This document shows positions 25,380 to 53,875 of a stretch of DNA of 64,000 bases, piece after piece. Below the pieces are notes generated by a model that had not been told where the DNA came from, ran no database searches, and worked only from the letters and a program-made list of their open reading frames with translations. The position numbers and the translations under genes are program-made. Origin of the DNA: Siphonodentalium dalli. Lineage: Eukaryota; Mollusca; Scaphopoda; Gadilida; Siphonodentaliidae. How positions within the stretch are numbered: position 1 is the first letter of the stretch; every line of letters begins with the position of its first letter. The stretch is taken from contig CP136067.1 in assembly GCA_032622095.1 (NCBI GenBank), forward strand, positions 96,152,707 to 96,216,706, written 5' to 3'.

Positions 25380-25797
25380 CAAACATTAGCCAAACAAAGG
25401 GCTTCCTTGAATCGTAAGCGCAAGTTAGATTTTAGCAACAATGCATCAGACACGCAACATCCTCCTAAAATGAAGAAAGTTACTGATTTCTTCGGACATT
25501 CAGATAATACCGATAGTCCAAATACAGTGGTTGATTTAACATCGACGTGTGCTACACCACCTAAACCGAGCAACATATTAGTGTCAAATGTCAAGAGAAC
25601 GCCACAAAAAGTTGCAAGTTCGCCAAAACGAAAATTCCGAAATGAGTGGAAAATATCTCGCGAATGGCTATCATTCGATGGAGACAAAAATGTTATGTTC
25701 TGTTCTACATGCCGCGCTGCGAATGTTAACAACATGTTCGTAACTGGTTGTAGTATCCTGAAGAAAGATCTTATTCTGAAACACGAGCTAACCAAAG
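25380..25797 (+). pseudogene. hAT transposase, N-terminal BED-like zinc-finger exon
   Basis: The open frame reads KRKLDFSNN, then KKVTDFFGHSDN, then a BED/TTF-type finger near W-x3-REWLSFDG, KNVMFCSTCR, NNMFVTGCS and LILKH. The F-C-x2-C pair and the later H fit zinc ligands. The frame ends at AAAG|GTATGT, a good splice donor at 25797/25798. No in-frame ATG is present before 25470, so the true start is in doubt. This domain order is known from ZNF862-like hAT transposases. Confidence 0.75.
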
Positions 25798-26065
25798 GTA
25801 TGTATACTATGTTTATAATTATATTTAAATATCACGCTATGTACAACGGGGAGTAACTCTATCATTCATTTCTGTCATTTTCACACCAATTGTATTCGAT
25901 ACGTCACAAGTAAGAAATTGCCGAGGATATCCGATTGTTTAAAATGGGATGTAACTCTACCATTTATGTTCATCAATATTGTTAATCGGAACTTCTCGGG
26001 TTTACTCGGATCGTCCGAAAATCTTCGATATTAATTTTGACAAAGTGACACATATAGTGTAGTGG

Positions 26066-26295
26066 CAGGTTTCGCGGAAACACTTTATTGTGTTCTGGTC
26101 TCCACAGTTGATTGTGAGAAGGCGTTCTCGTATCAGAACATGATTAAGACGAGATTGAGAAATAGACTGTCAGTGCCTCACTTAAATGTTCTTATGAAAA
26201 TTGCCATTGAAGGACCTTTAATGTCAGAATTTGACTTTGGCAAGGCATTTCATAAATGGTCAGAAATGAAATCACGAAGAATTTTCAACAATTGA
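26066..26295 (+). pseudogene. hAT transposase, C-terminal dimerisation region
   Basis: The frame contains VSTVDCEKAFSYQNMIKTRL, RNRLSVPHLN and IAIEGP, then FDFGKAFHKW and a stop. This is the conserved hAT dimerisation block (usual form VSTADCERGFS...IKTKLRNRL...L..ISIEGP). An acceptor-like AGTGGCAG lies just upstream. Between this and the N-terminal exon only about 270 bp remain, so several hundred codons of the core have been lost. Confidence 0.8.
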
Positions 26296-27297
26296 TATAT
26301 ATATATTACTATTAGTGTTGTAATGTTGTTTCTCTGAACTGTTATGATTACTTTGTATTTCTTGTTAATTGTGGCACATCATTGATAAAATAAATATATA
26401 CATATAATAGGTAATTTGCTTGTTTGTGTTTTTTTTCAAAAGTGGCTCCAAAAAATATTGGTCGGAAAGAAAGTGGCAACAGAAAGTATAAAGTGGCTCT
26501 AAAAATAATGCAAATGGCAACATTGTTGGCACCTGGAAATTTTGGGCCAGCGCGAACCCTGGTTGGACGGTGGTATATTATTGCAATAGACCTATATACC
26601 AAATATCAATTGAATCCGTTAATAATTCATTGAGTTATCGCACTAACGGTGATAAAATTGTGATTAAAATAGACAAACTAAGACCCATAACTCCGGAATT
26701 TTTTTTCGGACAAACCAGGTTTTCGAACTCGTCCGAGATATTGTTGCAATAGACTCATATACCAAATATTGTTTAAATCGGTTAATATTTAATTGAGTTA
26801 TCGCGCTAACGGTGATAACATTGCTAAAAATAGACAAACTAAGACCCATAACTCTGCAAAAAAAATCGAACAAACCTGGTTTTCGAACTCGTCCGAGATA
26901 TTGTTGCAGGAGACTCATACACCAAATATTGTTGAAATCGGTTAATATTTCATCGAGTTATCGCGCTAACGGTGATAAAATTGCTCAAAATAGACAAACT
27001 AAGACCCATAACTCCCAGTAACTCCGGGAAAAAAGTTCTGACAAACCTGGTTTTCGAACTCGTCCGAGATATTGTTGCAAGAGTCTCATATACCAAATAT
27101 TGTTGAAATTGGTTAATATTTGCATGAGTTATCGCGCTATCGGTGAAAAACTTAACTAAAAACCATCTAAGATGGATAACTCTTGTAAAAAAGTTCGGAC
27201 GTGACCCATTTTCTACAGGTAGTAAATAGTCATTGGGAGCAACTGCCATACCAAAATTTTGAATCCGTTCACAAATGTCAAAGTTATAAGGCATTCT

Positions 27298-34094: not shown

Positions 34095-34291
34095 CTGTGA
34101 ATCCATATTGAAATCGCCGAGAAGGTCGATTCCGTTAGAATAACTCATGTCTGTGTTGCTGGCAGGACTGAAAGGGTCAAATTCCAGCAAATTGTCATGT
34201 GACGTTGGCGTGACTTTCTTACTGATGGCTGCAGGCTGTTCTCCAAACTCCAACAACTCGTCAAACTGCGACATGGTCCGCTGGACGGCTT
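34095..34291 (-). CDS. Exon of an unidentified gene with clathrin/AP-2 motifs
   Basis: On the minus strand the exon follows TTTTCTTCAG and ends CAG|GTATAA, a good acceptor and donor. It is 197 bp, entering in phase 1 and leaving in phase 0. The 109-bp exons upstream end in phase 1, so the reading frame joins without a break. The product reads AVQRTMSQFDELLEFGEQ, later DNLLEFDPFSPASN, then DLLGDFNMDSQ. LLEFD fits the clathrin-box pattern and DPF the AP-2 alpha-appendage motif, so an endocytic adaptor tail is plausible. I do not recognise the gene. A MITE lies 15 bp upstream of the acceptor. Confidence 0.65.
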
Positions 34292-34306: not shown

Positions 34307-34535
34307 CAAGCCTTGAAATAGTGTGTCATTTGCAGAATGAGGTCCCCAGAGGGTGAAATTAGTGACACTACTCCACACAGCGGGCTAGTATCACTAAATC
34401 ACCCTCTGGGGACCTCATTCTCCTTAGGCCTCGTCTTCTGGGAAGTATCTATAGTCTTAAATTAAAAAATTTACTTTTTCCCTTCTGTTCAGTTTCTATA
34501 TACAATAATTTGCAGAAGATAAAATTCATAACTCA
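34307..34535. mobile_element. MITE family B, copy 6, right end truncated
   Basis: Left end CAAGCCTTGAAATAGTGTG and the arms AGAATGAGGTCCCCAGAGGG and CTCTGGGGACCTCATTCTCC are present, followed by ATCTATAGTCTTAAATTA and CTTCTGTTCAGTTTCTATAT. The right outer end is missing. It lies within the intron immediately beside the exon at 34095-34291. Confidence 0.8.
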
Positions 34536-35006
34536 GGCGACAATTTTTTTTGCAAAAACTTTATAAAATGAAAAACTCTGCTCAAATAATGTCATAATCA
34601 CATGTATTTCCTATGGCAGCAACTATCTGTACCAAGTTTGTTTTAATTTGACCAGAAAATGAAGGAATACACGCTTGGACAAAGTTGCATCCACAGATGG
34701 ACAGTCAGATGGATGGATGGATAAACAGAGAGATAAGCTGTTTCCAGTTTACTCATCCGTACAACTTGTTGCAGGAAGCATAAATAGTCAGCAATACTGA
34801 CACTGCAGCACATATGAAACAACAACTTACCACACTGTAGCCTTCTAAAACTGAGAAACAACATGAAACTCAATTCCTCCCCATATAGATGACCAAAGCG
34901 TTCATACAGGGACAAGCATAGAGGATTTAAATTGGGAGAAGTCACTTGTCCCTATAGATTATTAGGGACAAATGGACTGACTGTTATCAAGGAGAAGTCA
35001 TAATCA
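34536..35006. other. Intronic non-coding sequence with an old repeat
   Basis: Near 34610-34720 the inverse of the ATAACTC/GGATGG-type repeat is visible (CAGATGGATGGATGG tail). No exon is supported by splice sites. Confidence 0.4.
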
Positions 35007-35559: not shown

Positions 35560-35668
35560 CTTCAAAAGTTTCTGTTGCGTATTCCGTGGAATCCATGTTT
35601 ACAGAAAGTCCATCTATTTTACATTCAAATGAGGTGAAATCCCCAAACAAATGGATTGGACACACAAA
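35560..35668 (-). CDS. Alternative exon, version b (109 bp)
   Basis: On the minus strand it follows AATCTCAG and ends GAAG|GTATTTG. It reads FVCPIHLFGDFTSFECKIDG, then LSVNMDSTEYATETFE, in phase 0 to phase 1. Version a at 37359-37467 differs at only a few residues (ESKIDALSANMDSMEYATES). Both versions keep splice sites, length and frame. At 109 bp the exon cannot be included twice without a frameshift, so the pair is likely used one at a time. The family is not recognised. Clear protein-level conservation against freer change outside argues both are under selection. Confidence 0.65.
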
Positions 35669-35682
35669 CTGAGATTACTGTG

Positions 35683-36111
35683 CAAGCCTGCAAATAGTGT
35701 GCCTGACATTTACAGAATGAGGTCCCCAGAGGTCACCCTTTTAGTTTAGTGACGCTCTACCACACAGCAGGCTAGCATCACCAAATTCACTCTCCGGTGA
35801 CCTCATTCTGCTCATTCCGGGAAGTATCTATAGTCTCAAATTAACATTGTTTTTAGTTACTTTTTCCCTTCTGGGAAGTTTCTATATCCCCTAATTTGCA
35901 GAACATAAATTGCATAATCGAGGTGACTATTAAATGGGTGAACATCACCAACTTCAATTGGGGAACTTCAATCTGATCCCAGATCTCCCATAGCAATTGA
36001 GTCCTAAAGGGTGAATTTGGTGATTCTAGCCCATTGTATGAGATAGCATCACTAAATTCACCCTCTGGGGACCTCATTCTACAAATGACAGACATACTAG
36101 TTGCAGCCTTG
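35683..36111. mobile_element. MITE family B, copy 7, flanked by a 22-bp direct repeat
   Basis: Ends CAAGCCTGCAAATAGTGTG and CATACTAGTTGCAGCCTTG with the usual long interior (GTGAACATCACCAACTTCAA and others). The bases on either side, 35661-35682 and 36112-36133, are the same 22-mer with one mismatch (CACACAAACTGAGATTACT then G/C TG). This repeat includes the first bases and the acceptor of the 109-bp exon. The beginning of the sequence after it matches the upstream flank of exon version a. Confidence 0.85.
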
Positions 36112-36133
36112 CACACAAACTGAGATTACTCTG

Positions 36134-36467
36134 CAAAGGTTACAGGGACTTCTCAATCAACATCGTGTCAATTTGTCCCAAATCAGTACGCAGTAAACGA
36201 GATCTGGAACTGTTCAAATAAATTAATTTAAAAATGATATTCATTGTTATCTGGCAAGATTGCTATAATTAACGAATAAAAAATTATATTTATTGAGAAA
36301 TATAATTTTGATCATAAGTCGTTGACTTGATTTACTTGTAAACGTGGCTGTCATAGTTGATTTGAACCCGCAGTTATACAAGGAATGGTCTATTATTCAT
36401 TTGCAAGGGTTTTCAGGATACATATAAGACGGCAGACATAAATTCAGATAATACAAGAGAAGAATGA
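36134..36467. other. Intronic non-coding sequence
   Basis: The first 55 bases (GGTTACAGGGACTTCTCAAT...GTGTCAATTT) match 37481-37530, so the exon duplication extended into the intron. The rest is unique and AT-rich. Confidence 0.5.
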
Positions 36468-36553
36468 TTCATATTTATGGCGAGGCTCCCTATTAAAGGG
36501 AGACTCTCAAATATAAGAGAATGTATTGGCACATGGATTTCACAATAGGTTAA
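36468..36553. mobile_element. Family C fragment, copy 7
   Basis: GGCGAGGCTCCCTATTAAAG, TATAAGAGAATGTATTGGCA and a right end ATAGGTTAA remain from the right hairpin. The left half is missing. Confidence 0.6.
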
Positions 36554-36687
36554 AAGGTCTCTACTGCCATCTTATATTTATATTTCTTATATTTGTATTT
36601 CTTATATTTATTCTGATATTTTCTTTCCAATTTTAGCCATGAATATACTAACATTTCATTTATACCCATAAGATGTGCCCAGATTTA

Positions 36688-37333
36688 CAAGCCTTGAACT
36701 AATGTGTCTATCATTAGCAGAATGAGGTCCCCAGATGGTGAATTTTTAGTGACACTATCCCGCACTGTGGGCTAGAGTCACCCAATTCACCCTCTGGGGA
36801 CCTCATTCTGTTTAGGCATCAACTGCTATGGGAGACCTGGGATCAGATTGAATTTCCCCAGTTAAAGTCGGTGATGTTCACCCATTTAGTTACCTCAATG
36901 ATCCAATTTATCTTCTACAAACTAAGGGATATAGAATCTGAACAAAAGGGAAAATGTAACTAAAAACAATGTTAATTTGAGACTATAGATATTTCCCAGA
37001 ATATGAGGCCTAAGCAGAATTATGCTTAGGCCTCAACTGCTATGGGAGACCTAGAATCAGATTGAAGTTCCCCAGTTGAAGCTGGTGATGTTCACCCATT
37101 AGTCACCTCAATTATGCAATGTATCTTCTGAAAATTAGGGGATATACATAGAAACTGAATAGAAGGGAAAAAGTAACTAAAAACCATGTTAATTTGAGAC
37201 TATAGATACTTCCCAGAATATGAGGTATAACCAGAATGAGGTCCCTAGAGGGTTAATTTAGTTAATTAATTCACTAAATTCACCCTCTGGGGACCTTATT
37301 CTGCAAATGAGAGACACACTATTTCAAGGTTTG
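36688..37333. mobile_element. MITE family B, copy 8, longest form
   Basis: Ends CAAGCCTTGAACTAATGTG and CACACTATTTCAAGGTTTG. The interior block (TCAACTGCTATGGGAGACCT to GACTATAGATACTTCCCAGA) is present twice in tandem, which explains the 646-bp length. Flanks CCAGATTT and CCAGATAA may be a decayed 8-bp target duplication. Intronic in the minus-strand gene. Confidence 0.85.
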
Positions 37334-37358
37334 CCAGATAACCAGTCTCTATATATAC

Positions 37359-37467
37359 CTTCAAAGCTCTCAGTTGCATATTCCATGGAATCCATGTTTG
37401 CAGAAAGTGCATCTATTTTACTTTCAAATGAGGTGAAATCCCCAAACAAATGGATTGGACACACAAA
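37359..37467 (-). CDS. Alternative exon, version a (109 bp)
   Basis: On the minus strand it follows AATCTCAG and ends GAAG|GTATAT. It reads FVCPIHLFGDFTSFESKIDA, then LSANMDSMEYATESFE, in phase 0 to phase 1, and so joins to the 197-bp exon at 34095-34291 in frame. It is the upstream member of a tandem exon pair about 1.8 kb apart. The upstream intron flank (AAGTAACCGTAAACCTTTGC on the minus strand) is shared with version b. Upstream exons of the gene were not found in the window. Confidence 0.65.
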
Positions 37468-37863
37468 CTGAGATTACTGTGCAAAGGTTTACGGTTACTT
37501 CTCAATCAACATTGTGTCAATTTAACATTTATCGCAATGGGTTTGGTAACATCAATGTCAACAGGGTTAGCGACCCAAGTCTTCTGTATCAACCAGCCCC
37601 CATAAATCACTCATGAAACATGTGTATCACAATAAATCTTATTATATGTCTAGATATATCCATATTAGCCTGGTCACATCATCCTACCCAGAGCTGGACC
37701 TTCTCTGATGTGACTTATTGAGTAAGCTAAGATGTTGGTGGGTCAAAAGCAGTCCTCAAAATTGGACATGGCAATAAGCAATGTGGGAAACACTGTTCCA
37801 CAGCATTAAATTTGCTGAGTGACATTTTTCCTAATTTCGAGGGCTGGTCCAGGTCGTACTTAG
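37468..37863. other. Non-coding, probably intron
   Basis: No exon was recognised. GGCTGGTCCAGGTCGTACTT and nearby bases lead into a family C element. Confidence 0.35.
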
Positions 37864-38138
37864 TTAACCCTTTGAGTAAAGAAAGGATTAACCCTTTATG
37901 GAACCCCAGACAGAGAGAACAATGCGATGTTGACTGTCGTCTGCTTGGGTTCGTTTGGGGCTCTATACAGGAGTTTTATATAAAACTCCCATGATGGGAG
38001 CTGTGCTGGTGCAGCAATAAAGATCATGAGCCAGTAGATTCTTTATATATGCGAGTCTCCCTCGCATATGTAAGAGAATTCACTGGCTTACAAGGTCAAG
38101 GGCTAAATTTCAGGAAGCTCCAGTTATGAAAGGGTTAA
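37864..38138. mobile_element. Family C, copy 8
   Basis: TTAACCCTTTGAGTAAAG and a second TTAACCCTTTATGGAACCCC lie at the left; CAGTTATGAAAGGGTTAA is the right end. Only one reduced hairpin (CCAGTAGATTCTTTATATAT with GTAAGAGAATTCACTGG) remains. ACTGTCGTCTGCTTGGG and TTGGGGCTCTATA also occur in the element at 13825-14280. Confidence 0.7.
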
Positions 38139-38438
38139 TAATGATGTTGTTGAGTCTTGCCGATTGATTTAATTATGATGTTGGGCTATTGTTGAGAACA
38201 AGAAGGTGGTAAATAAAGTATGCACTTAAATGTAGTCTGTGGATATTGGCTCTGTCTTAGATTACTTTTTTAGTCCCTGCTCAATTTACAACAACCAAAA
38301 CAGTATTTTTTCTAAAGGATGAGGCACCCTATTCATGAATTTTCAAAAACTTTCAATTTCTAACTATCAATTTGAAGGAAAAAAATCATTATTATAACAA
38401 CACATGTTTACCCTCACAATATGAGAGATGCATTTGAA
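38139..38438. other. Non-coding, nothing recognised
   Basis: AT-rich sequence between two TTAA elements. No exon or repeat was found. Confidence 0.35.
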
Positions 38439-38671
38439 TTATAACCCTAAGTTCATGACAGGAGATGCGCTGGAAATATGGCTTGTTGCTATTCATCGGA
38501 AAGCTCTCCCCAAGAGCTTTCCGATGAATGGCAACAAGCCATATTTCCAACTAAATCCTGAAAAGTTACCCATAATTCTGCTGTGGTTAAGAAGTCGATT
38601 ACTTAGAGCATTACTGTAAGAGAAGCATTGGCACAGGTTTTTATGCAAAATTTCAGTCATGAAAGGGTTAA
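38439..38671. mobile_element. Family C, copy 9, interrupted by family A
   Basis: The left end TTATAACCCTAAGTTCATGA and CAGGAGATGCGCTGG, and the right end GCATTGGCACAGG...TCAGTCATGAAAGGGTTAA, are family C. Between them sits a family A fragment at 38472-38618, which has replaced the hairpins. The right TTAA is shared with the next element. Confidence 0.7.
38472..38618. mobile_element. MITE family A, copy 11, nested
   Basis: GGAAATATGGCTTGTTGCTA through the centre GAAAGCTCTCCCCAAGAGCT to a full right arm ending AGAGCATTACTGTA. The outer left arm is missing, as in copy 10. Confidence 0.85.
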
Positions 38672-39409
38672 CTGGTTCGCTGCTAAATATCCTACATACA
38701 CGTAATAAAATGCGTATATATATTTCAACAAACAGAAAATTATTGAATTTTATGCTCGCAGTTGATAATTTGCACTCTTTTCTCAAATTTGACATATATA
38801 CATTTGTGATTATGTTATGAGCCTGGATGTCTCACTAGGCTATGGTTATGAGCTTGGATGTCTCAATAGGCTATGGTTATGAGTCTGAATGTCTCATTAG
38901 GCTATGGCTATGCCTATGGGCCTGGATGTCTCATTAGCCATTCGGCTATGGGTCTGGATGTCTCATTGGGCAATAATTATGAGTCTGGATGTCTCATTAG
39001 GCAATGGTTATGAGCCTGGATGTCTCATTAGGCTATGTTTATGAGCCTGGTTGTCTGTTTGTCAAAGTAGGTTATCGATATGAGCCTGGATGTCTGATTA
39101 GGTTATGGTTATGAGCTTGGTTGTCGGCCGCCCTTAGGGCAAAACATTTGTAATTTACTCAAACTTTTCGCGATATAAGTACCTTTTCTGACAATTTTAT
39201 TGGTCAGCATCCATTCAAACTTCACAATATCCCAATTTAATTATATATGTAACAATATTTCTGAAATATTACATGACAAACGCTATTTAAATGATTAAAC
39301 TAAACAAGAGTTGACTAAACAAGACAGTGTCATTGCCAAAGCCCATATCTGGGCTTCCAGCACTCTTACATAGGGTCCAAATATGGGCTTTCAGCACTGA
39401 ACCAGTTAA
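38668..39409 (+). mobile_element. TTAA element G, copy 1, with 31-bp minisatellite
   Basis: TTAACTGGTTCGCTGC at the left and CACTGAACCAGTTAA at the right are inverted ends flanked by TTAA. A second copy lies inverted at 62034-62813 and has the same two boundaries, which confirms the ends. The interior holds a 31-bp array (38812-39125) and GCCCATATCTGGGC plus AATATGGGCTTTC near the right end. It is a non-autonomous piggyBac-like element by target site. Confidence 0.85.
38812..39125 (+). repeat. 31-bp minisatellite inside element G1
   Basis: Units of TATGAGCCTGGATGTCTCAT plus TAGGCTATGGT are repeated about 10 times with drift and two irregular insertions (near 38930 and 39055). The inverted copy at 62325-62660 shares the same irregularities, so the array pre-dates the spread of element G. 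Confidence 0.93.
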
Positions 39410-39935
39410 AGGGGGACTGTACCCCAATTTCAATAAATTCAGAATAATTAATAACAGCAACATTTTACTCCACCAACATCATAACTAAAATTAGCAGGAC
39501 CCACCAACATCATAGAAAATTAGCAGGACCACTTAACCAGGGGTGTATGCAGCAAGTATATACCTCAACATTCTATGGGATGGAGGAAATTCCATTCTGT
39601 TTGGTCAGAGGTAGTGATCTTGTTCACACAAATAATTCCTCAAAGATTTCCCAGATAACATAGTGTAAGTCTTGGAGATGTGAGGATAACATTTAGAAGC
39701 TTTCAGCAAACCATGGTCTATCTGTCTGCACATCTGTAACCATTTATCAACAAACCAATGCTAACTTCTGCAAAACTTTTTTACTGATAAATATTTAGAA
39801 CCATGGAAAATGAACTGTTTTGATGTCGGACAATAGCCCTGTGTACATGCTTGTACTGTATATTTCTTACTGAAATAAACCATCATATCTTAATTAATGA
39901 AGAGATTGAGCTTGTAAATTCCTATCTTGTAACAG
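39410..39935. other. Non-coding, nothing recognised
   Basis: CCACCAACATCATA and AAATTAGCAGGACC occur twice near 39470-39530. No exon was found. Confidence 0.4.
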
Positions 39936-40322
39936 CATGCCTGAAAATAGTGTGTCTGTCATTTGCTGAATGAGGTCCCCAGAGGGTGAATCTAACACAA
40001 TGGTCTAGCATCACCAAATTCACCCTCTTGGGACCTCACTCTGCTTAGGCATCATTATCTGCGAAGTATCTATAGTTTCCAAATAACATTGGTTTTAGTT
40101 ACATAACATAATCGAGATGACTTACAGGTGAACATCACCAACTTCAACTGGGGAACTTCAATCTGATCCTTAAGGTCTCCCATAGCAGGTTTATGCCTAA
40201 GTAGAATGAGGTCCCCAGAGGCTGAATTTGGTGATGCTAGACTGCTGTGTGGGATAGCGTCACTAAATTCACCCTCTGGGGACCTCATTCTGCAAATGAC
40301 AGACATACTATTTGCAGACTTG
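39936..40322. mobile_element. MITE family B, copy 9
   Basis: Ends CATGCCTGAAAATAGTGTG and CATACTATTTGCAGACTTG. Interior includes GTGAACATCACCAACTTCAA and TCTCCCATAGCAG. Confidence 0.85.
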
Positions 40323-40704
40323 TCTTTTATGAAATACTCATTGATTACTAGTACATGTACCCTTATGACATGTTCAGATAATGTTCAGCCTATGGCAGTT
40401 TCTTGATCTTATTATCTCTCACCAATGAATAGGAATTCTTCTGCCCCTATTTTCTTTTTGTCTATCTGCCTGTCGTATGATTTTATTTCCTGAACATCCA
40501 TTAAAATGAATAATAGACCATTCACATGTGTACTTTTATAACTGAATGGGAGAATCCATTTAGTAAAGAAAGTGTTAAAGAGGTGTGAAACATGGCCCTG
40601 AAAATATAGCCTGTATTTGATTTCGGGGGGGGGATAGGTCTCGAGGTGCATCATTAGAATAGGCAGAGGGTTTTGAACTTGTAAATTCCTATCTTCTTAT
40701 CATG

Positions 40705-40932
40705 TATAGTAATGCCATAAATTATCGACTCCTTAACCACAGCAGAATTATGGGTAATTTTTAAGGTTTTATTCGGAAATATGGCTTGCATCTAGTTGCC
40801 ATTCATCAGAAAGCTCTCACTCTCCGAGAGCTTTCCAATGAATGGCAACAAGCCATATATCCAACTAAATACTGAAAAATTACCCATAATTCTGCTATGG
40901 TTAAGGAGTCGATTATTTAGGGCATTACTGTA
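40705..40932. mobile_element. MITE family A, copy 12, full palindrome
   Basis: TATAGTAATGCCATAAATTA and ATTTAGGGCATTACTGTA ends; the centre CTCTCACTCTCCGAGAGC is slightly enlarged. A six-base insertion lies in the left arm. Confidence 0.88.
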
Positions 40933-41311
40933 ACATGTCATTTAACCCTTTCTATACTAAATGTATTCTCCTACTCACTTATAAAAATATACATTTGAAA
41001 AGGGCTATTATTCATTTGAAGCAATTTTCAGGAAAAATAAGCAGGCGACAGATGATATAAATGCAGAAGGAGTCCCATAGATTGGAGGGAAATGTTCAGA
41101 TAATATGTTCAACAAATGACTTGAACTTATTATCTGAACATTTCCTCAGGGAACTACTCGTCAATGAGTATTTATAGAAAGAGTTGAAGGCCCTCAAGTC
41201 ATTTGGGATGTGAATAGAAATTATTGAAATTTTGCCGAACGCCAATCAAAATACAACTTGCGCAAATGATACTGTATCAGCATATAATAACATATCACCT
41301 AAAGCCACATA
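40933..41311. other. Non-coding, nothing recognised
   Basis: AT-rich sequence. GAAATGTTCAGATAATATG near 41090 and TTATCTGAACATTTCC near 41140 form a short inverted pair. No gene. Confidence 0.35.
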
Positions 41312-41420
41312 TACAGTAATGCCCTAAATAATTGACTCATTAACGACAGCAGAAGTATGGGTAATTTTTCAGGATTTAGTCGGAAATATGGCTTGTTGCC
41401 ATTCATCGGAAAGCTCTCAC
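41312..41420. mobile_element. MITE family A, copy 13, left half only
   Basis: TACAGTAATGCCCTAAATAA to CATCGGAAAGCTCTCACTGA is one arm. The palindrome stops exactly near the centre. Confidence 0.85.
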
Positions 41421-42004
41421 TGATACATTTTTGATACTGAAATAAGACTTGAAATGAGTGTGGTAGCGGGAGTCCGGTTGATTCTGAAGTTGCCAGCTAA
41501 AGTAGGGGTATCTGTATTTATCGGCAGATTTTGATAAGAATTTCCAACAACTGTGGTCACCACAAAGACTGAAGTGAGCATTCAAGTCAGAAATGTTCAG
41601 GAGGATCAGGAGGAACAACTCTAAAATATTTCTACTAACATAGACATGACTTTCTTTTATCCCTTCAGGTTAAGAAGTTTATAATTATTTTGTTAAATTA
41701 TGGCAGGTCCAATGGCATCAATTCACGGGACTGATATTGGGTGTAATCATTTGGCCATCCATGATATTGGGTGTAATCTATTGGCCATCCATTAACACAG
41801 AGCTGTGCCTGGGGACAATGGTGTATAATATCCTCACATCTGGCAGTGTCTGGGCCAATCAATGACATCATGTCTCAAGCAGAGTCAAGGTTATAGTATT
41901 GATTTTAAAAAACTAGCACATGTCTGGCTGATTAAATGAGTTTAGGGACATTTCCATGTGTTATTCTGATTGTAACTACATGTATTTTGAACTAGCTACC
42001 ATAT
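41421..42004. other. Non-coding
   Basis: CTGATATTGGGTGTAATC and TTGGCCATCCAT occur twice near 41730-41790. A minus-strand frame at 41403-41618 starts in the MITE and has no known domain. Confidence 0.4.
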
Positions 42005-42117
42005 TTAACCCTTTCATTATGGGAGCTGCGCTGGTACAGCATTAAAGACCCTCTGCTAGTGCATTCGCTTATATATGCGAGTCTCGAGTCTCCCATGGGA
42101 CACTCGCATATATAAGT
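42005..42117. mobile_element. Family C, copy 10, left half
   Basis: TTAACCCTTTCATTATGGGA, GCTGCGCTGGTACAG and one hairpin CTTATATATGCGAGTCTC with its inverse are present. The right half is replaced by family D sequence. Confidence 0.75.
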
Positions 42118-42400
42118 CGAAACTAAAAATTTCACGATTTAAGTGACTTTATGAGCGATTTTAGTTTGCATCGCTTACAATTACGGAATTTCTCCTGGGT
42201 AATTAATTTGATGTCTATTGCGATATCGGCTGACAAAAGTCACAGAAAATAATGCAATTTCGAGTTGGGACATTATTAAGGAACATGTAATAACTAAGGA
42301 ATATATTCCCTGCGTTATTGTTTCGACTTTATAAGGTTCCCTGTCAAAACTTCAAAAAGTTCCCAGGTTTTGTACTGGTGGAATATGATCTCTACGGATG
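42118..42400 (-). repeat. Dispersed family D, copy on the minus strand
   Basis: TTTCACGATTTAAGTGACTT, GCATCGCTTACAATTACGG, TCTCCTGGGTAATTAATT, TTATAAGGTTCCCTGTCAAA and CCCAGGTTTTGTACTGGTGG are the inverse of the blocks at 49.1-49.5 and 30.8-31.3 kb. Confidence 0.7.
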
Positions 42401-43826
42401 TTATATGCCATTCCCTACAATGTGTACATAGTGGGAGTGGCATCTGGGGTCCACGCAAAATGTTGTGATAGTCAGCAAGGAATCATTTGAGTGATCAAGA
42501 ATTACAGGCGGTATGTGGACACTATATTATACCATGTTCCCCTAATTAGTCTGTGAAAGAATTGTTCATTCTCACAGAAAAACTACTTTTGTAACTTATC
42601 ACACATTCCACGTCTCTGTTTATGCAGGGTAGGGAAATTCTGCTCAATAACTTGGGAATTCCCCATAAGCATGACAGCAAAGTTTATAAATAAAACAATC
42701 CCAAAAGATATTTTTGACCAATCAGAGGTTGAATTGAATGCACGACGTGAGCTTTCGAACTCAAAATATTAAACAGTCATTCCACATTATTGCTATTTCA
42801 TCACAGCGCCCACATACTTATGTTAGTATTGAAACGACTCTGAGATACTGGAGTCGTTTAGCTGAACCCCAAAAATTTGAGTTGAAATAGACTAGTTGGT
42901 ACCTGCGGCCAAGAATTATATACAAGTAGCTAGAACCATATCAATATGCATGCCATTGTTTATGATACAGCATACATCAGTCCTGAAATCCTTGCAATAC
43001 AGTCATACAAGTAGTCATTGGTGACTATCAAATTAATAAATACTATTATACATGTATATATATACACACTACTCCAGTAGTCGAGTAGTGTATCTTCAGT
43101 AGTATATAATTATTCATTTTATAGTCAGCGTTATGTTAATTGCTTATAATGCTTCAGATGACTTATGTGTCACATGTAATAAGTGATATATTGTTTCGAT
43201 TTTCGTTCAAAAATAAAGTTGAGAAAGATGTCAGTCTGAGTCGCAAAAAGTTTGTCTGTGAACTCTGTCTTCGTTCTTTGTTTGACATTCGGAAAAAGTC
43301 TCAGCTGTTACGACAAATAAGTGAACAATAATTAGAAGGATATCCGATGGTCAGCTATGATTTCCTGATTTGATTCAAGATTCGATGTCGATGTCGACAT
43401 TGCCACATTGGACACCCGATTCGATTTGAGATTCTATTCATTGCCGAATTACCGATTCGCAGGGCCCTACCATCATGGAACTTGGAAAACCTGGTGCCCA
43501 GTTATCACGATTGTGCACGACTTATGTACTACATTTTGAAAATACTGACTATGTTGCATTTTGAATACTGTCACATCCACGGCAAGTGTTTGATCAATGT
43601 GCCATATACCTACATTATTGTCTTTTAACTCTTATTATGGGAAGTATATACAATGTTCCGACTAGTCAATGGCAATATACAGAGTCGACAGTGAGAGCTA
43701 TCAGCATCGTCTTTAGTCGACTAATCATTTCAACACGAAAAACTATCAAACATGCTGTAACTAAAGTACCAAATAACTGATTACGGAATATCTCATGATA
43801 TGCATGTTTATTTGGCTAAACCTAAA
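42401..43826. other. Non-coding, nothing certain
   Basis: No exon is supported. A small imperfect hairpin with TATACACACTACTCCAGTAG and CGAGTAGTGTATCTTCAG lies near 43055-43110. Short frames at 43140-43331 and 43586-43780 have no domain. Confidence 0.35.
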
Positions 43827-43930
43827 TACAGTAATGCCCTAAATAATCGACTCCTTAACCAAAGCAGAATTATGGGTAATTTTTGAGGATTTAGTCGGAA
43901 ATACTGTTTGTTGCCATTCATCGGAAAGCC
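43827..43930. mobile_element. MITE family A, copy 14, left half only
   Basis: TACAGTAATGCCCTAAATAA to GCCATTCATCGGAAAGCCCT; the right arm is absent, as in copy 13. Confidence 0.85.
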
Positions 43931-44135
43931 CTGCGCAATTGAGTAAAAAGTTAATTGTAAACGATTATTACAGGGGGCGACTCAACCCTATTGAATTAAG
44001 TGTGAGTATGTAGGGTTGAAATTTAACTAGCCTTGCCCCTAGGACATCTCAAGTAAACACTAGGACAATCGGAATGGCACAACACCAAGCTATCAGATAC
44101 ACCTTTAATATCTACATCTACCCAAGCAACCCCAG

Positions 44136-44505
44136 TGTGATGGCCGAGTGGTTAGCGTGTTCGACTACCGGCCAGAGGGTTCGCTTGGATCCCAGATCGA
44201 TTCACCTCAATCCTTGACAAAATAAAAGTCGGGAGCTCCGAGCGTGCCTATATAAAGTACCATGTAATGGCGTGTATGCCTCGCTGAGGTGTCGTTAAGC
44301 GGTAATCCTCTAAAGGGATGACACTTGTTTGATCACGCCATCCCATCGGGTGGGGGCGTTAATGGCTGTCCCGTGTACAACCATGCGTGCACGTTAAAGA
44401 ACCCTACTGTGGGCAATGATCCACAGGTTAATGGCAAAATTCCTGTCTAAATTCCTCCCTTCGGGGCATAAGCTTCTAGTACGTTGTAGATATGTAGATA
44501 GTGTT
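44136..44505 (+). mobile_element. tRNA-derived SINE
   Basis: The head GTGATGGCCGAGTGGTTAGC resembles a tRNA A-box and GGGTTCGCTTGGATCC a B-box with an insertion. The central part TTAATGGCTGTCCCGTGTAC and GCGTGCACGTTAAAGAACCC is shared with the decayed copy at 5915-6175. It ends near GTACGTTGTAGATATGTAG, with GATAAGATAAGATA nearby at 44768. A tRNA-like promoter, a conserved middle and a simple tail fit a SINE with a conserved central domain; I cannot assign the named superfamily. Confidence 0.7.
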
Positions 44506-44804
44506 AACTGCCTAACACTGGGTATGTACAAGTATAGACATAAAAGTTCAGGCCCGTCGAGTTGAGTCCCAGTATGGTTCGCAAGCGTGGTAAAATACTC
44601 CTCCAGGTATGTATATACATGTATGTAAAAGTACTAACAAGTCCTACTAAAAATCAAATACCCCTCCCTAGATTAACAATACTAACAAGATGTCTATACA
44701 GCTGTGTGGGTGTGGATGTCAAAGTTGGGCCATTGGTGTTCTCCTGACATAGGAGGTATTTACGATATAAGATAAGATAAGTAGACAATAAAAGATAAGC
44801 TACA

Positions 44805-45306
44805 CATTCTCAAATGGCCTACTCTTGGCAGAAGAAGAGACTTCTCCTCTTATTCTCTTCCATAAAATCCAATATAACCATGTAAACATCACCGACTCTG
44901 CTCCTCTTACACCTACACGAGACTACAAACTTCTCTGCCCCTTCTACCAACCAAAATACCTCAGTACTTCCTTCTATACTTGAACAATTTCTCTCTTTCT
45001 AGAACAATATCCCAACCGACACTGCCCATATCCAGGACGAATCAATGTTTAAGGATGCCCTCCACAATCATTTCTATGAACCCGGTAAAGGCAAGCAGGG
45101 CTCCTCCTCAAAACGACCACCAGCCCGATCACCTGCATAGTGCCAAAAGAATGGTACAAAATTTTTAATACTCTTATTTTAATAATGAAAAAAAAAATAA
45201 AAAATCTTTTACCCATATAAATATCTTTTATTCATGAGCCCCCTAATAATCCTCAGTTCATTGAGGGTATGGGGTATACTCGTAGATGTAGATGTAGATG
45301 TAGATC
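44805..45306 (+). mobile_element. Possible LINE 3' end
   Basis: The translated frames contain pieces such as FSLSRTISQPTLPIS that resemble the C-terminal end of non-LTR reverse-transcriptase ORFs (an RTI...W-N-LP region), broken by stops. This is followed by an A-rich stretch, a GAGGGTATGGGGTATACTCG segment and a GTAGATGTAGATGTAGATG tail. The GTAGAT tail is also hinted at in the SINE just upstream, as expected if the SINE uses this LINE. Confidence 0.4.
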
Positions 45307-45651
45307 GGGTTGGACTTGGCACTGAGGGAGTTAATACACCTTGATAAATCATAAAAGCAAATATACCACAAACTCATAAGACACATCAGATGCAGGAATT
45401 GATCAGAAAACTTGGTTAATAACAATACCTGTGATCACATGATATCATTCCAACCAATCAGGGTCCAGAAATATACAGAAGTAATCAATTTGAATAAGGA
45501 GTTCATATGTATAGAAATCCAATAATGGTTAAACCAGGTGTGCTCCATAGATAATAGTTGTGTAATTAATCTTGGGCTACAATAGTAAAGTAAACATTGA
45601 TATGGTAGATAGCCTTTAGATAGGTGAAGGTGGTGGTTATTTTAGTAAAAA
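45307..45651. other. Non-coding, nothing recognised
   Basis: AT-rich unique sequence. The last eight bases, AGTAAAAA, are the target duplication of the next MITE. Confidence 0.4.
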
Positions 45652-46097
45652 CAAGCCTTGAAATGGTGTGTCTGTCATTTGCAGAATGAGGTCCCCAGAG
45701 GGTGAATTTAGTGATGCTATCCCGCATGGCGGTCAAGCATCAACAAATTCACCCTCTGGAAACCTCATTTTGCTGAGGCCTCAACTGCTATGGGAGACCT
45801 AGGATCAGACTGAGGTTCCCCAGTTGAAGTTGGTGATGTTCACCCATTAATAGTCACCTCGATTATGCATTTTAGCTTCTGCAAATTAGGGGATATAGAA
45901 ACTGAACAAAAGGGACAAAGTAACTAAAAAAAATTTCATTTAAGACTATATATACTTCCCAGAAGATGAGGTCTAAGCAGAGTGAGGTCCCCATGAGTGT
46001 GAATTTAGTGATGCTAGCCCACGGTGTAGTAGCGTCTCTGAATTCACCCTCTGGGGACCTCAATCTGCAAATGACAGACAAACTACTTCAAGACTTG
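45652..46097. mobile_element. MITE family B, copy 10, with clear 8-bp target duplication
   Basis: Ends CAAGCCTTGAAATGGTGTG and CAAACTACTTCAAGACTTG. The flanks are AGTAAAAA at 45644-45651 and AGTAAAAA at 46098-46105, a perfect 8-bp duplication. That size points to the hAT group, although the ends only partly fit the hAT consensus. The long interior is intact. Confidence 0.9.
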
Positions 46098-46243
46098 AGT
46101 AAAAACATCTTCATATCTATCTACTATCAATATTGTACATATGGAAATATATAAAAAACGCTGGATCAATTTAAAGAGAGTTACTGAAAGCTTCTATATA
46201 CATAAACTATGACTGAGGCAGGGGCCAGCTCAGATGTTTCAAA

Positions 46244-46415
46244 TTAACCTTTTCACGATGGGAGCTGCGCTGGTGCAGTATTAACGATCCTGTGTCAGTG
46301 CATTCCCTTATTATCCTGCATATGCAAGTCTCCCACAGAGAGCCGTGCATAATATTATATAAGAGAATGCAGGCCAATGAATTCTCTTATATATTTGAGG
46401 TTTAAGCCCCCTCCC
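46244..46415. mobile_element. Family C, copy 11, rearranged
   Basis: TTAACCTTTTCACGATGGGA and GCTGCGCTGGTGCAG lead to hairpin parts CCAGTGCATTC-like and ATATAAGAGAATGCAGGCC. The right end is missing and a second element follows at once. Confidence 0.7.
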
Positions 46416-46625
46416 ATTAGCCCTCTCATGACGGGAGCTGCACTGGTGCTGTATTAAAGATCATGTGCCAGTGCATTCTCTTGTATATGCACTTCCATAG
46501 GGAGCCTTGCATATAAAACAGAATGCACTGGCCTACAAGTTCAAGGTAAATATTGTTAGGCCAATGAATTCTCTTATATATGCAAGGTTTTAAGTTCCTC
46601 CCCTTCCCCAGCCCTCTTCCAGCAA
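46416..46625. mobile_element. Family C, copy 12, right end incomplete
   Basis: TTAGCCCTCTCATGACGGGA, GCTGCACTGGTGCTG, the hairpin CCAGTGCATTCTCTTGTATA with its inverse, and the second half-hairpin CCAATGAATTCTCTTATATA. CCCCTCCC(A/T) strips follow both this and copy 11, so they may be a tandem duplication. Confidence 0.7.
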
Positions 46626-46680
46626 GGTTGGACAGAAAACCACTTTCGAAATAAACAATAAACAAAGAAGGATAACTCTA

Positions 46681-48008
46681 AGGCCTAAAAAAAATATGTT
46701 TGTTTCCGCTAACGAGCTGAAATAAAATTAGGGTAGGTAGGTCACATAAGGCTTAACTTCTTTTTTTTTGTTAACTTTTTTTTTTCAGTCTCTTTAAAAA
46801 TAACTATAATACTTTCACTAGCAATAACCCAAACTACATGTATGCACTTCTTAGCCCCAATCAGGATAACCCAGACGACAGAGGAACTAGAAACTCCAAT
46901 TCAATCTTACATGTACATATGCTTTAATATTTACATATATACTAGTCTATATACTAATATAGTCTTTGATAATCCTAATATTTCCCATATGGTCTGGCGA
47001 CAACTGGAGTCAGTCCAGCACCACTGCACTGTTCACATATTGAATCTTTTAATGATGGGTTCACAACACCACCTTCTCCTCCGCATTCAGTGAAGGATCT
47101 AGATATTTTTTGGGGACACCTGTTTTTGGGCAATGATATGCCGAACGCATAACCTGAAGGCCTGAGCGGAGGAATGTTTGGTAGGGGTGACCCCCTGATT
47201 ATGGTGGAGGTTCTCCCCCTGGAAATTTTTTGAAAATCCATTGCATTTAGAGCTATTAATCTAAGGCGCTTTGAGTCAGTATTTTGAATTTTATATAAAA
47301 GAATCATCACATATGAAAAACACGCCCTATATGAGTCTAAATAAACCTTCTAATCCTGTATTTTAATGCACGGATTCTAGGACGCGAAGCGTGTAATAAA
47401 CACAGAACGACACGATGTGTAACTGAGTTTGTCGATACGGCACTCGTACTGTCGCGGAAGGATAGAACTCGAGGCGCTTTCTCGTTCTATCCTTCCGCGA
47501 CAGCACTCATGCCGCATCGACAAACTCAGTTACTCATCGTGTCGTTCTGTGTATATATGGTACTAATTTTTATGTTAATTTTTCATTTGGTATTATGAGA
47601 TCCCACCTGATAACCAGGTTGATTTGATCAAATTGTTAATGTTCCTGTGATGTAATTGATTGAAATACTGAAGTCTGAACGCTGAAGGATAAATAACCTG
47701 AACTCAAATTATTTCACAGATGAAAGCTAGATAAAGCCAAACATACTTTACAGTATTATTCCAACTGTTAAACTTAAATCTTTTTGTAAACTTAAATTTC
47801 TTATGTCAATATATCTAAATATATAAATGTTTTGCATCTTATTATGATATGAATTGGGACCAAAATTTAAAAAAAATAAAATTTAAACTTTTTTTTTTTT
47901 TTTGGTCCAATTTTTGTTTGTTTTGCAATGGCAATAAAACGTTTAGGGTCGGGGTTTAAAATAGGGTCGGTCGGGTTAGCGGAAACAAAAGTCTTTTTTT
48001 TTAGGCCT
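46681..48008 (+). mobile_element. Foldback element F, about 1.3 kb
   Basis: AGGCCTAAAAAAAATATGTT followed by TGTTTCCGCTAACGAG at the left is mirrored by TCGGGTTAGCGGAAACAAAAG and TTTTTTTTAGGCCT at the right. About 35 bases pair with small gaps. The interior has no long frame but carries a strong hairpin at 47401-47551. I recall AGGCCT-A-run ends of this type from mollusc repeats, but cannot name a superfamily. Target duplication is not clear. Confidence 0.6.
47401..47551. repeat. Strong 151-bp hairpin
   Basis: CACAGAACGACACGATG, AACTGAGTTTGTCGAT and CTGTCGCGGAAGGATAGAAC on the left are mirrored almost completely on the right, leaving a loop around CTCGAGGCGCTTTCTCG. GC content is higher than the surroundings. 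It may be a separate palindromic MITE inserted in element F. Confidence 0.85.
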
Positions 48009-48121
48009 AAACAGAAAAAGCAAACAGTGTCATTGGGGCCCTCTTTTGAACAGTCCTGATGGCAAAACTCCTTACCAAAATTGTTTTATTTAGGTCTGAT
48101 AACAGACAGCTGACATACTTA

Positions 48122-48472
48122 TGGGAAGCCAAGTTGACATTTAATAAATAATTGAGCTTGAGCGCAATAAGGAATCTCTAATTGCGCTTAAGCGCAATAA
48201 GAATATTTCTTATTGTGCTTAAGCGCAATTAGATATTCCTTATTACGCTTAAGCAATAAGATATTCCTTATTGCGCTTAAGCACAATTAGATATTCCTTA
48301 TTGCACTTAAGCACAATTAGAGAATCCTTATTGCGCTTAAGCTCAATTATTTATTAAATTTCAGTTAATAGATCAGCACAATTAGATCTTCCATTATTGC
48401 ACTTAAGCACAATTAGAGAGTCCTTATTTCGTTTAAGCTCAATTATTTATTAAATGTCAGTTTGGCTTCCCA
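48122..48472. mobile_element. Foldback element with internal GCGCTTAAGCGC palindromes
   Basis: TGGGAAGCCAAGTTGACATT and AATAAATAATTGAGCTT at the left are mirrored by AAGCTCAATTATTTATT and TGGCTTCCCA at the right. TA lies on both sides. Between them, ATTGCGCTTAAGCGCAAT and variants are repeated about seven times with AGATATTCCTT spacers. Every unit is itself a palindrome, so the element has hairpins within a hairpin. No coding frame. Confidence 0.85.
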
Positions 48473-49089
48473 TAGATACTGAAGTAGACATTCAATTTGG
48501 TAGACTGACAAAAAAAATCTTAATTTCCAGATAAAGTGAGATATCTCTCCTTACCAGTATGGACATTGTAGACGAACTGTTTGACCAAAATTATAAATAT
48601 ATGTTACTATCACCCCCCCCCCCCCCTCACAATAACCCCCTCCTTTAAAAATGAGATGATCCATAGCATGTGACAAAAATGTCAAAATGTGGAATGATAT
48701 CACATTCTCGATGCTCAAAATCTTGCTAAGAAAATAGTCACCTGCTCCTATGAGTCAATAGACTCAGTCATAGATTATGATCTTTATCCCCTTGAAACGC
48801 CACATCTGTATCAAAACACAGGTACTACCCTCAATTTAAACAAACATAACATGCACAAGAACAATGGAGTAGTTGTCAATGTCAGCCATTTTCAATCAGT
48901 CGCACGCGCACGTGGGGGAATTCCCAGAAATACCTGGTCGGAATATTGCATTCACAAACGAGGGGTGATTGCAAGAAGGAAACTATCAAAGGCATCTTAT
49001 ACCTTTAATTTAACCCCAGAATTGTCTTTCAACAGTGGCCAGTGGGTAGGCGACTTCTATTTTCTAACAATCATTTAGTGCGCAGGGAT
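48473..49089. other. Non-coding with a poly-C run
   Basis: A C run lies at 48611-48626. An open frame at 48851-49078 has no known domain and no splice support. Confidence 0.35.
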
Positions 49090-49510
49090 GTGTCCAGAGG
49101 GTCTTCGTTGTCACGGTCCAGAGATGTGTCCAACTTAGAGCATGCCATGAACCTCCACTCTGACTAACTTGGAACTTTTTGAAGTTTTGACAGGGAACCT
49201 TATAATTCGAAAACATAACGCGAGGAATGTATCTCTTAGTTGATATCATTTCCTTAATAATGTACTTTACAGTAGGTGATTGTCCCAACTCAAAATTACA
49301 TGCTTTTCTCTGACTTTTGTGAGCCGACTATCGCATTAAACATCGAATTAATTACCCAGGAAACATTCCATAATTGTAAGCGACGCAAAGCAAAATAGCT
49401 CACACATTCACTTAAATCGTGAAATTTTGAGTTGCGACCTTCACGACCCGTCACCTACAGTGAAGTACCTAATTATTAAGGAACAGATACTAACTAAGAA
49501 ATCTATTCTC
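49090..49510 (+). repeat. Dispersed family D, copy 4
   Basis: GCATGCCATGAACCTCCACT, TTTGAAGTTTTGACAGGGAA, ATTACCCAGGAAACATTCCA, AAGCGACGCAAAGCAAAATA and AGGAACAGATACTAACTAAG match the other D copies in order. Confidence 0.7.
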
Positions 49511-49539
49511 CATGTTATTTTTTCGAATTTATATACACT

Positions 49540-50470
49540 AATATAGGGCCTGCTAATGTTCAGACATTAATAAAGGGCCTACTAATGTTCAGACGCTAAT
49601 ATAGGGCCTACTAATGTTCAGACATTAATATAGGGGCAACTAATGTTCAGACACTAATATAGGGCCTACTAGTTAATGTTCAGATATTAATATAGCCTAC
49701 TGATGTTCAGACAGTGATATAGGGCCTACACTAATATAGGGCCTACTAATGTTCAGACATTAATTATTTCACACTGATATAGGGCATACTAATGTTCAGA
49801 CACTTATATAGGTCCTACTAATGTTCAAACACTAATATAGGTCCTACTAATGTGCAGACACTAATATAGGGCCTACTAATGTTCAGACACTAATTATTTC
49901 AGACTAATATAGGGCCTACTAATGTTCAGACATATATTTCTCACTAATATATGGCCTACTAATGTTCAGACATTAATAAAGGGCCTACTAATGTTCAGAC
50001 GCTAATATAGGGCCTACTAATGTTCAGACATTAATATAGGGGCAACTAATGTTCAGACACTAATATAGGGCCTACTAGTTAATGTTCAGATATTAATATA
50101 GCCTACTGATGTTCAGACAGTGATATAGGGCCTACTAATGTTCAGATATTAATATAGGGCTTACTGATGTTCAGACAGTGGTATAGGGCCAACTAATGTT
50201 CAGACATTAATATAGGGCCTACTAATGTTCAGACATTAATATAGGGCCTACTAATGTTCAGACATTAATATAGGGCCTACTAATGTTCAGACGCTAATAT
50301 AGGGCCTAATAATGTTCAGACACTATATAGGGCCTACTGATGTTCAGACGCTAATATAACGCCTACTAATGTTAAGACCTTAATATAGGGCCTACTAATG
50401 TTCAGACGCTAATATAACGCCTACTAATGTTCAGACACTAATATAGGGCCTACTAATGTTCAGACAATAA
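49540..50470 (+). repeat. 29-bp minisatellite with a 404-bp inner duplication
   Basis: The unit CAGACATTAATATAGGGCCT plus ACTAATGTT repeats about 30 times with insertions. The stretch 49567-49729, including the rare AATATAGGGGCAACTAATG and ACTAGTTAATGTTCAG variants, is repeated in order at 49971-50133. This shows one large block duplication on top of unit-level change. Confidence 0.95.
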
Positions 50471-50503
50471 ATCTGCTGAAGTAGTGCCGATGACGTCATC
50501 ATT

Positions 50504-50748
50504 TTAACCCTTTCATGTATAGAGCTTCCTGAAATTAGGCGAAAACCCTGTGCCAATGCATTCTCTTATATATGCCTCGCATATATAAGAGAATGCATTG
50601 GCCTAACACTATTTACATTGACCTTGTAAGCCAGTGCATTCTCTTATCTATGCGAGGCCCCCTATGGGAGACTCGCATATATAAGAGAATGCACCGACAC
50701 ATGATATTAAATGCTGCACCAGCGCATCTCCCGTCACGAAAGGGTTAC
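50504..50748. mobile_element. Family C, copy 13
   Basis: TTAACCCTTTCATGTATAGA and CTCCCGTCACGAAAGGGTTA are the ends. The first hairpin is a compact CCAATGCATTCTCTTATATA plus inverse with a six-base loop; the second is CCAGTGCATTCTCTTATCTA plus inverse. Spacer is ACACTATTTACATTGACC. Confidence 0.9.
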
Positions 50749-51873
50749 GAGATATATTTATGAGACTGAATACCTCAAAGTTTGTCATTATGAGCTAGAA
50801 GTCAGCGTTCGCTCACCGGCCACTGTCACAGGTATTTGAGAGTGGCTAAAATGTACTGGCAAGCTTGACGGTTTTTGCATGAGGGAGATGACTAAAAGTC
50901 AAGCTTGGCTATTTGAAATTTTTTAAAAGCCTTTTAAATGCTGTTTTCGTGTGAATTATGTTGGAATATCTAGAACCAGTCAATTACCGGTACTTATATG
51001 GTCAATTTTCGTAAATTAATCGTTAAGCGGACTATTGACTTTGGAAAATTTGACTAATTTGCTCATTTTCAAATCAAAATCAAATATAGAGTGTCTTTCG
51101 TATATGATCACTTACCTTAAACGCTGTTATAAGATTGTATTCTTATATGGTATCAGGTAGGATATAATGTAGGCTAATCCAACCGAAAGATGCACTGCTT
51201 TTGGTCACAAATAACAAAAGAAGTATAGGCGTGGTTTAGGGTATATTCATGGGCTAATCCACCCGTTATAAACACTGCATTTGGCGACAAATGACAAAGA
51301 GGTTATGCCGGCGTGGTTTGTCTCTGAGAGTTCCAATCGATAAAGCATGAGACATGCGGGGCGGCTGAATCAGAATTATAATGAGCATCAGGGAAATCCC
51401 CGGCTAAATCAGGATAATGGGCGATATCGAACGCCACGCCAATCGATGACACCGCCCGATAGGATAGGTTCACACGCTGGCAAATTTGCAGGCAATTTAT
51501 TAGCGGCAGAGGACTGTGTGGTGTACCAGGATCCAAGTCTGCAAATAGTCGAGCTCCATGCAGAATTCAGTCCCTTATATACGCAGGACTTACCGCTGCC
51601 CGCACCAACATACACTGCATGTGAATTTAAAGAAATGTCACATTTAATTTTTTGAGACTTTTGTAGGTTACAATTCATTCTGCATTATATATTCTGAGAA
51701 ACTGTACTGTCCATATTCATTTGAAAAATTGTTTAGATCAAGCCAGAATGAATTGTAACTGACAAAACACCTCAATAAAAAATGTTTAGATTTTATTAAG
51801 AAAATACACATGCCGGCAGCGGTCAGACATAGCGTAGCGAGGGGATTGAACTCTGTTTTGCGGTTGGCAAAAG
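50749..51873. other. Non-coding, with a two-copy repeat
   Basis: GGCTAATCCAACCGAAAG, TTTTGGTCACAAATAACAAA and GGCGTGGTTT near 51170-51237 recur as GGCTAATCCACCCG, TTTGGCGACAAATGACAAA and GGCGTGGTTT at 51253-51320. Overlapping frames on both strands at 51300-51680 show no domain. Confidence 0.4.
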
Positions 51874-52060
51874 GCAAATAGTGTGTCTGTCATTTTCAGA
51901 ATGAGGTCTCCAGTGGGTGAATTTATTGACGCTATATATATCCCGCACGGCGCGGGCTAGCATCACCAAATTCACTCTGTTTGGAAACTCATTCTGCCGA
52001 GGCCTCAACTGCTATGGGAGACCTGGGATCAGTTTGAACGTTCCCCAGTTGATACGTTCA
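51874..52060. mobile_element. MITE family B, copy 11, right part missing
   Basis: GCAAATAGTGTGTCTGTCAT, AGAATGAGGTCTCCAGTGGG, GCATCACCAAATTCACTC and TCAACTGCTATGGGAGACCT are family B. It breaks off after CCCCAGTTGATACG. Confidence 0.75.
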
Positions 52061-52305
52061 CACGATGGCAATTAATTTGGGCGACAGAGGGTGCTAGGAT
52101 CACAGGGGTCCTGAGACTATTTTTATTAATATATTTTATGATATATATTAAAAGGTCTCAGCGTAGATTTTCGAGGAAATAACACCAAATCGAACCACAT
52201 ATAGTATACAAATGTCCTTGCACCAGATGCAAATAACAATACTATATCTATTATATATTTTGGAAGATCTGTGTGTGTGTGTGTGGGTGTGGGTGTGTTT
52301 ACCTG

Positions 52306-52410
52306 GGGTTGGGAGGACATACACATGTTTGCACACCAACGTTGTGAGTACAATTTGGTTTATGAGGACATTCCAATGTCCTCACAATGATGTCCTCGCA
52401 ATGGTATCAA
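52306..52410 (+). repeat. TGTCCTC-family repeat
   Basis: GGGAGGACATACACATGTTT, GCACACCAACGTTGTGAG, TTTGGTTTATGAGGACATT and ATGTCCTCACAATG. Related sequence occurs at 55431-55510, 56623-56705, 62880-62955 and 63588-63645, in both orientations. Confidence 0.7.
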
Positions 52411-52554
52411 AACTACATTCTGATTGTGTATTTCAATTTTAGGAACGGTCCCCATAACTCGGTTTGTATTCTGAACCCACACACACATACACAAAAATAT
52501 TCCATTGGCGAATCGCGGGTCGCTTCGCACAAACAAACTATATACACGAGTGTA

Positions 52555-53872: not shown

Positions 53873-53875
53873 TAA

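Follow-up and report, generated by a model that had tools for sequence, protein, structure and literature searches.

Duplicated exons in known genes and in the present window

In human PGM1, two alternative promoters serve the paralogous 5' exons 1-1 and 1-2, which arose through exon duplication; the segments encoded by these exons are about 51% identical, the two isoforms are both known, and the duplication dates back more than 420 million years (PMC7101342). UGT1 contains clusters of variable first exons, each with its own promoter (PMC3325998). A survey of human mutually exclusive exons (MXEs) based its candidate predictions on resemblance in sequence, comparable length, and reading frame and tested the candidates with junction reads; it also points out that seemingly mutually exclusive exons need not be MXEs and that terminal exons are included through alternative promoter usage (PMC5740500). 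It is well established that a gene can have a duplicated first exon and two promoters, and the finding described below is of a known kind.

We analyzed a window of 64,000 nucleotides from Siphonodentalium dalli (contig CP136067.1), on the minus strand of which an initial annotation had pointed out two versions of one 109-bp exon that looked mutually exclusive. Judging from the sequence, we rate it as somewhat better than even (probability of about 0.55) that this pair arose by duplication of a gene's first coding exon and provides alternative starts. As in PGM1, a first coding exon would be duplicated and each copy would join identical downstream exons, whereas only about 12 residues are encoded here and the promoters and their use are putative (compare PMC7101342). 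The locus shares with UGT1 tandem first exons joining common downstream exons, but has two copies only, whose separate promoters are putative (compare PMC3325998). With tandem-duplicated MXEs, as outlined in PMC5740500, the pair has in common homology, equal length, a common frame, and a frameshift if both are included; unlike MXEs, it had no convincing coding exon found upstream, and its copies probably carry a start codon and a leader. By this comparison, the pair would fit the PGM1 kind best, although membership is proven for none of these kinds. There is a pitfall here: duplicated first coding exons can satisfy most sequence criteria for mutually exclusive exons. The start context and the onset of synonymous change may separate first-exon pairs from mutually exclusive ones.

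The duplicated block and the MITE inside it

The exons and the segment adjoining the distal copy are as follows.

37359 to 37467, minus strand: 109-bp exon, distal copy; probably coding over 37395-37359 (MDSMEYATESFE...)
35560 to 35668, minus strand: 109-bp exon, proximal copy; probably coding over 35596-35560 (MDSTEYATETFE...)
37468 to 37523, minus strand: 56 conserved bp adjoining the distal exon on its upper side, which may be a core promoter or leader
34095 to 34291, minus strand: shared next exon, the top-scoring minus-strand candidate of the exon scan; both copies join it in frame

We confirmed the 109-bp pair at 37467-37359 and 35668-35560 on the minus strand; the distance from start to start is 1,799 bp, with a gap of 1,690 bp between the copies. 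As the initial annotation had described, both copies are preceded by a common acceptor-like AATCTCAG and end in GAAG|GTAT, and either can be joined in frame to 34291-34095. Both are stop-free in translation (36 codons plus one base). The copies differ at 9 of 109 bases and their translations at 5 of 36 residues (16, 20, 23, 28, and 34), which bears out the claim that the peptide differences are concentrated towards the second half.

The match between the two copies (130 bp at 93%; E of ~2e-51 within the window) is far above chance, and the presence of two exon copies is thereby confirmed. Homology reaches beyond the exon: the shared block measures 169 bp, is present twice on the minus strand, and extends over 56 bp above the exon, the exon itself, and 4 bp on the donor side, with 37523-37355 aligning to 36174-36112 plus 35660-35556. 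Outside the block, the 200-nt flanks are no more similar than shuffled sequence (P = 0.27 above and, excluding the MITE, P = 0.25 below). This MITE interrupts the proximal copy, and further members of its family lie near the exons.

35683 to 36111: MITE with terminal inverted repeats inside the proximal copy (429 bp)
36112 to 36174, minus strand: outer piece of the block in the proximal copy, severed by the MITE 8 bp into the exon
35661 to 35685, minus strand: inner 25-bp repeat copy of 36136-36112, with one mismatch; restores the acceptor-like proximal exon start
36688 to 37333: a longer member of this MITE family, with one end 26 bp from the distal donor
34307 to 34545: a third family member, with one end 16 bp from the shared-exon acceptor

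The sequences at 36136-36112 and 35685-35661 form a 25-bp direct repeat (24 of 25 bases identical), 3 bp of which overlap the MITE end, and because this repeat lies on both sides of the element, a complete acceptor-like start follows the MITE. We compared the ends of seven MITE copies, with one end (12006) set by hand: the one at 45652-46097 is flanked by an exact 8-bp target duplication, that in the proximal exon by the 25-bp repeat, and the other five gave short or poor matches. The 25-bp repeat is unlike the 8-bp duplication. We considered whether the MITE had made the exon copy, which this comparison did not establish. The 8-bp duplication and the ends starting with CA suggest the hAT superfamily for the MITE. 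The window also holds hAT-derived gene pieces on the plus strand at 25380-26570, where PF25431, a C17orf113-type zinc finger, matches at E = 9.8e-9 and PF05699, a hAT dimerisation region, matches at E = 2.7e-5 (~26.04-26.21 kb).

The MITE family comprises 11 intervals over 60 bp in the window, 3 of which end within 26 bp of the three exons of this gene. Shift tests gave P values of 0.0004 (30 bp limit) and 0.0015 (50 bp) for MITE ends near exons; with two boundaries, the values at 17 and 25 bp were 0.003 and 0.005, all with limits picked post hoc, once the closeness of MITEs and exons had been seen. A preference of the MITE for insertion into open promoter chromatin is one guess. Other repeats in the window include a satellite at 16804-18774 (31-bp units, 63.5 copies), arrays of similar units of ~31 bp at 38814-39125 and 62320-62661, listed on opposite strands, and a 450-bp unit repeated 1.9 times at 1819-2683 (99% matches), which reflects either a recent tandem duplication or an assembly effect.

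Splice sites, proposed start codons, and the choice among readings

Using a simple matrix, we obtained scores of -0.1 and -2.5 for the acceptor-like sites of the distal and proximal copies, corresponding to percentiles of 85 and 65 among all minus-strand AGs (outscored by ~15% and ~35%, respectively), compared with 98.6 (top 1.4%) for the shared exon acceptor at 34291. Another AG lies 9 bases above the acceptor-like site of the pair, and above the exon, both copies have an in-frame TAA with two codons in between. The donors of the two copies reach the 94th and 93rd percentiles, which is common to any spliced reading.

The internal-exon scan yielded 11 minus-strand candidates, and neither 109-bp copy reached the cut; apart from the shared exon, the candidates were repeats, a glycine-rich stretch, or weak. 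Above the pair, the scan gave repeats, the glycine-rich stretch (57100-56831), and a weak candidate at 47153-47073, which is in phase 0 at both ends and would fit before the distal exon. A three-frame Pfam scan of the minus strand gave nothing at E of 0.1 for 37468-57200 and no credible domain for 4400-34094. Matches to PF20291 and PF11306 in all three frames were repeat artefacts from the 31-bp satellite, a source of spurious Pfam matches, and four downstream matches below the curated cut-offs (E = 0.016, 0.2, 0.29, and 0.34) were dropped. The exon and Pfam scans above the pair are blind to non-coding exons. Since neither search found coding exons downstream of 34095 either, the missing upstream coding exon is weak evidence.

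The start codons that we propose are as follows.

37393 to 37395, minus strand: proposed start codon of the distal copy, context AAACATGG
35594 to 35596, minus strand: proposed start codon of the proximal copy, context AAACATGG

This ATG stands at exon position 73 in both copies, and its context score is equalled by 0.4% of minus-strand ATGs. From the ATG on, four changes are synonymous and two are nonsynonymous (6.2 and 29.8 sites; P = 0.008 versus random substitutions), compared with none and three before it (15.0 and 57.0 sites). Changed synonymous sites number 0 of ~15 before and 4 of ~6 after the ATG (Fisher P = 0.0025 with rounded sites), in a small sample of nine changes total and with a split picked after the data were seen. 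The synonymous excess over the whole exon (P = 0.11) and the plain contrast in the number of changes across the ATG (P = 0.06) were not significant. Per codon, the coding score of the two copies was 0.06 and -0.06 ahead of the ATG as opposed to 0.31 and 0.25 behind it, the shared exon scoring 0.26; before the ATG, frame 0 is nevertheless stop-free in both copies and the best scoring of the three frames, which counts against a start there. Each copy holds a candidate start codon in good context, with coding constraint starting there, within the limits of a small sample and a split chosen afterwards. Taken together, the weak acceptor, the nearby in-frame TAA, the ATG context, the synonymous excess after the ATG, and the lack of a convincing upstream coding exon in the exon scan and in Pfam (37468-57200) make the pair look more like start-codon exons than like internal coding exons.

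If the copies are duplicated first coding exons, each would begin with a conserved segment that is promoter-proximal or part of the leader. A 5' untranslated part including the first 72 exon bases would follow, and then a coding part with the start codon at position 73, 12 codons, and the donor GAAG|GTAT, spliced to the shared exon at 34291. Depending on whether the message begins at the distal or the proximal copy, the protein would have slightly different first residues (MDSMEYATESFE or MDSTEYATETFE), and the leaders would differ in their upstream ORFs. The sequence shows that the exon is duplicated, that the copies agree in frame and donor sequence, and what the ATG context, the change pattern, and the MITE are; a transcription start within the block, use of both copies, and a difference in translation between the leaders are our inferences. 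An acceptor-like AG is retained in both copies, which speaks against a first exon. It may instead be that the AATCTCAG acceptor is used and that the copies are second exons, a non-coding 5' exon further up or a trans-spliced leader being joined to either start-codon exon, in which case splicing would make the choice. We regard this as possible but unlikely: it retains the start-codon evidence, the acceptor-like sequence is identical in the copies, and the 25-bp repeat rebuilds the proximal one, but the acceptors are weak with an extra AG shortly above, and in the proximal copy the MITE occupies the sequence further up.

Internal mutually exclusive coding exons, with all 36 residues translated and one copy chosen, are a doubtful alternative. 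The two are homologous neighbouring exons of similar length and identical frame, and the equal length and phases, the 36-codon open frame, the frameshift upon joint inclusion, and the weak phase 0 candidate at 47153-47073 suit this reading; the lack of a convincing coding exon upstream in the exon scan and in Pfam (37468-57200), the absence of synonymous changes before the ATG versus four after it, and the weak acceptor do not. Besides, at a spacing of 1.69 kb, the choice would not be enforced sterically. The frame argument of the initial annotation invoked a phase-1 to phase-1 neighbour, which contradicts an exon whose phases are 0 at entry and 1 at exit; the rule requires an upstream neighbour ending in phase 0, for which the scans gave no convincing candidate. 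Its first half holds, as joint inclusion breaks the frame (from the distal ATG, both exons joined give 26 codons and then a stop), but the half concerning skipping loses force because the pair looks more like start-codon than internal coding exons. Either-or use of the two copies is plausible, as the annotation had proposed, but internal mutually exclusive splicing is not its best reading. We consider it quite unlikely that a single copy is used and that the other, most likely the MITE-split proximal one, is a decaying duplicate. The interrupted block and the lower acceptor score of the proximal copy agree with decay, and since nine random changes give a stop in only ~20% of trials, the open frame is no proof of use; both copies, however, retain the start context and the donor and show the synonymous bias after the ATG. 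An assembly artefact, in which two divergent haplotypes of one exon were placed in tandem, is hardly credible: 45% of the window bases are repeated within the window and there is one assembly gap (61872-61971), but this gap is distant from the exon pair, and the flanks are unrelated on both sides, whereas haplotypes should align past 169 bp.

Putative leaders and the encoded product

With the inner copy of the 25-bp repeat used, the 56 bases above the exon show four substitutions and one gap, and the first 72 exon bases show three changes, giving seven substitutions and one gap in 128. The alignment contains 67 identical bases in a run, with 14 differences over 169 columns (P = 0.008 under even placement). 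The duplication would be old if synonymous change behind the ATG has come close to saturation (4 of 6.2 sites) and the outer flanks have lost their similarity. In an old duplication, such close agreement over the 56 bp and the first 72 bases suggests either that non-coding sequence is under constraint or that local gene conversion has occurred. The conserved segment could well be a core promoter followed by a 5' leader. The consensus of the Inr is TCAKTY, and an Inr-like TCAGTT is present at 37471-37466 on the minus strand, overlapping the distal exon start; such matches occur at 2.4 per kb on the minus strand, and the acceptor-like TCAG|TT as an Inr is therefore only suggestive.

The following upstream ATGs are present in the leaders.

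37410 to 37412, minus strand: upstream ATG of the distal leader, opening a 66-codon out-of-frame ORF that overlaps the main ORF; T at -3, weak context
35611 to 35613, minus strand: upstream ATG of the proximal leader, with an ORF closed after 4 codons; T at -3, weak context

These two ATGs are counterparts of each other, and the proximal leader has an additional ATG with a stop immediately after it. Given the T at -3, the effect of the upstream ATGs may be small. If it is true that the upstream ORFs act differently, the pair would form a small natural comparison of leader effects on translation. A further idea, which we hold to be rather unlikely, is that the leader and core promoter stay near-identical while the codons behind them diverge synonymously, with the choice of start, through the overlapping distal and the closed 4-codon proximal upstream ORF, acting mainly on translation and setting protein output more than protein sequence, and with the MITE tolerated through the 25-bp repeat that rebuilds the exon start.

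The 102-residue peptides of both versions had no Pfam match at E up to 1. The distal peptide matched three PDB sequences at E of 1.6 or worse, and the 78-residue product from the ATG matched one designed helical bundle in PDB (E = 1.4); these matches were taken as chance, as was one of 30 residues at 47% to a Bradyrhizobium MAG among prokaryotic genome contigs. Relatives were not found in a viral contig collection, and a text search for the string LLEFDPF returned no paper. By eye, the shared exon contains what we take to be a clathrin-box-like motif (LLEFD) and a DPF motif, and the residues preceding the ATG could extend a heptad-like helix, which would count against a start at the ATG. The shared exon is followed by GTATAA (34095-34089, minus strand), an in-frame stop if the donor is unused, and could be the last exon. 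Without splicing at 34095, the protein would end in ...NMDSQV.
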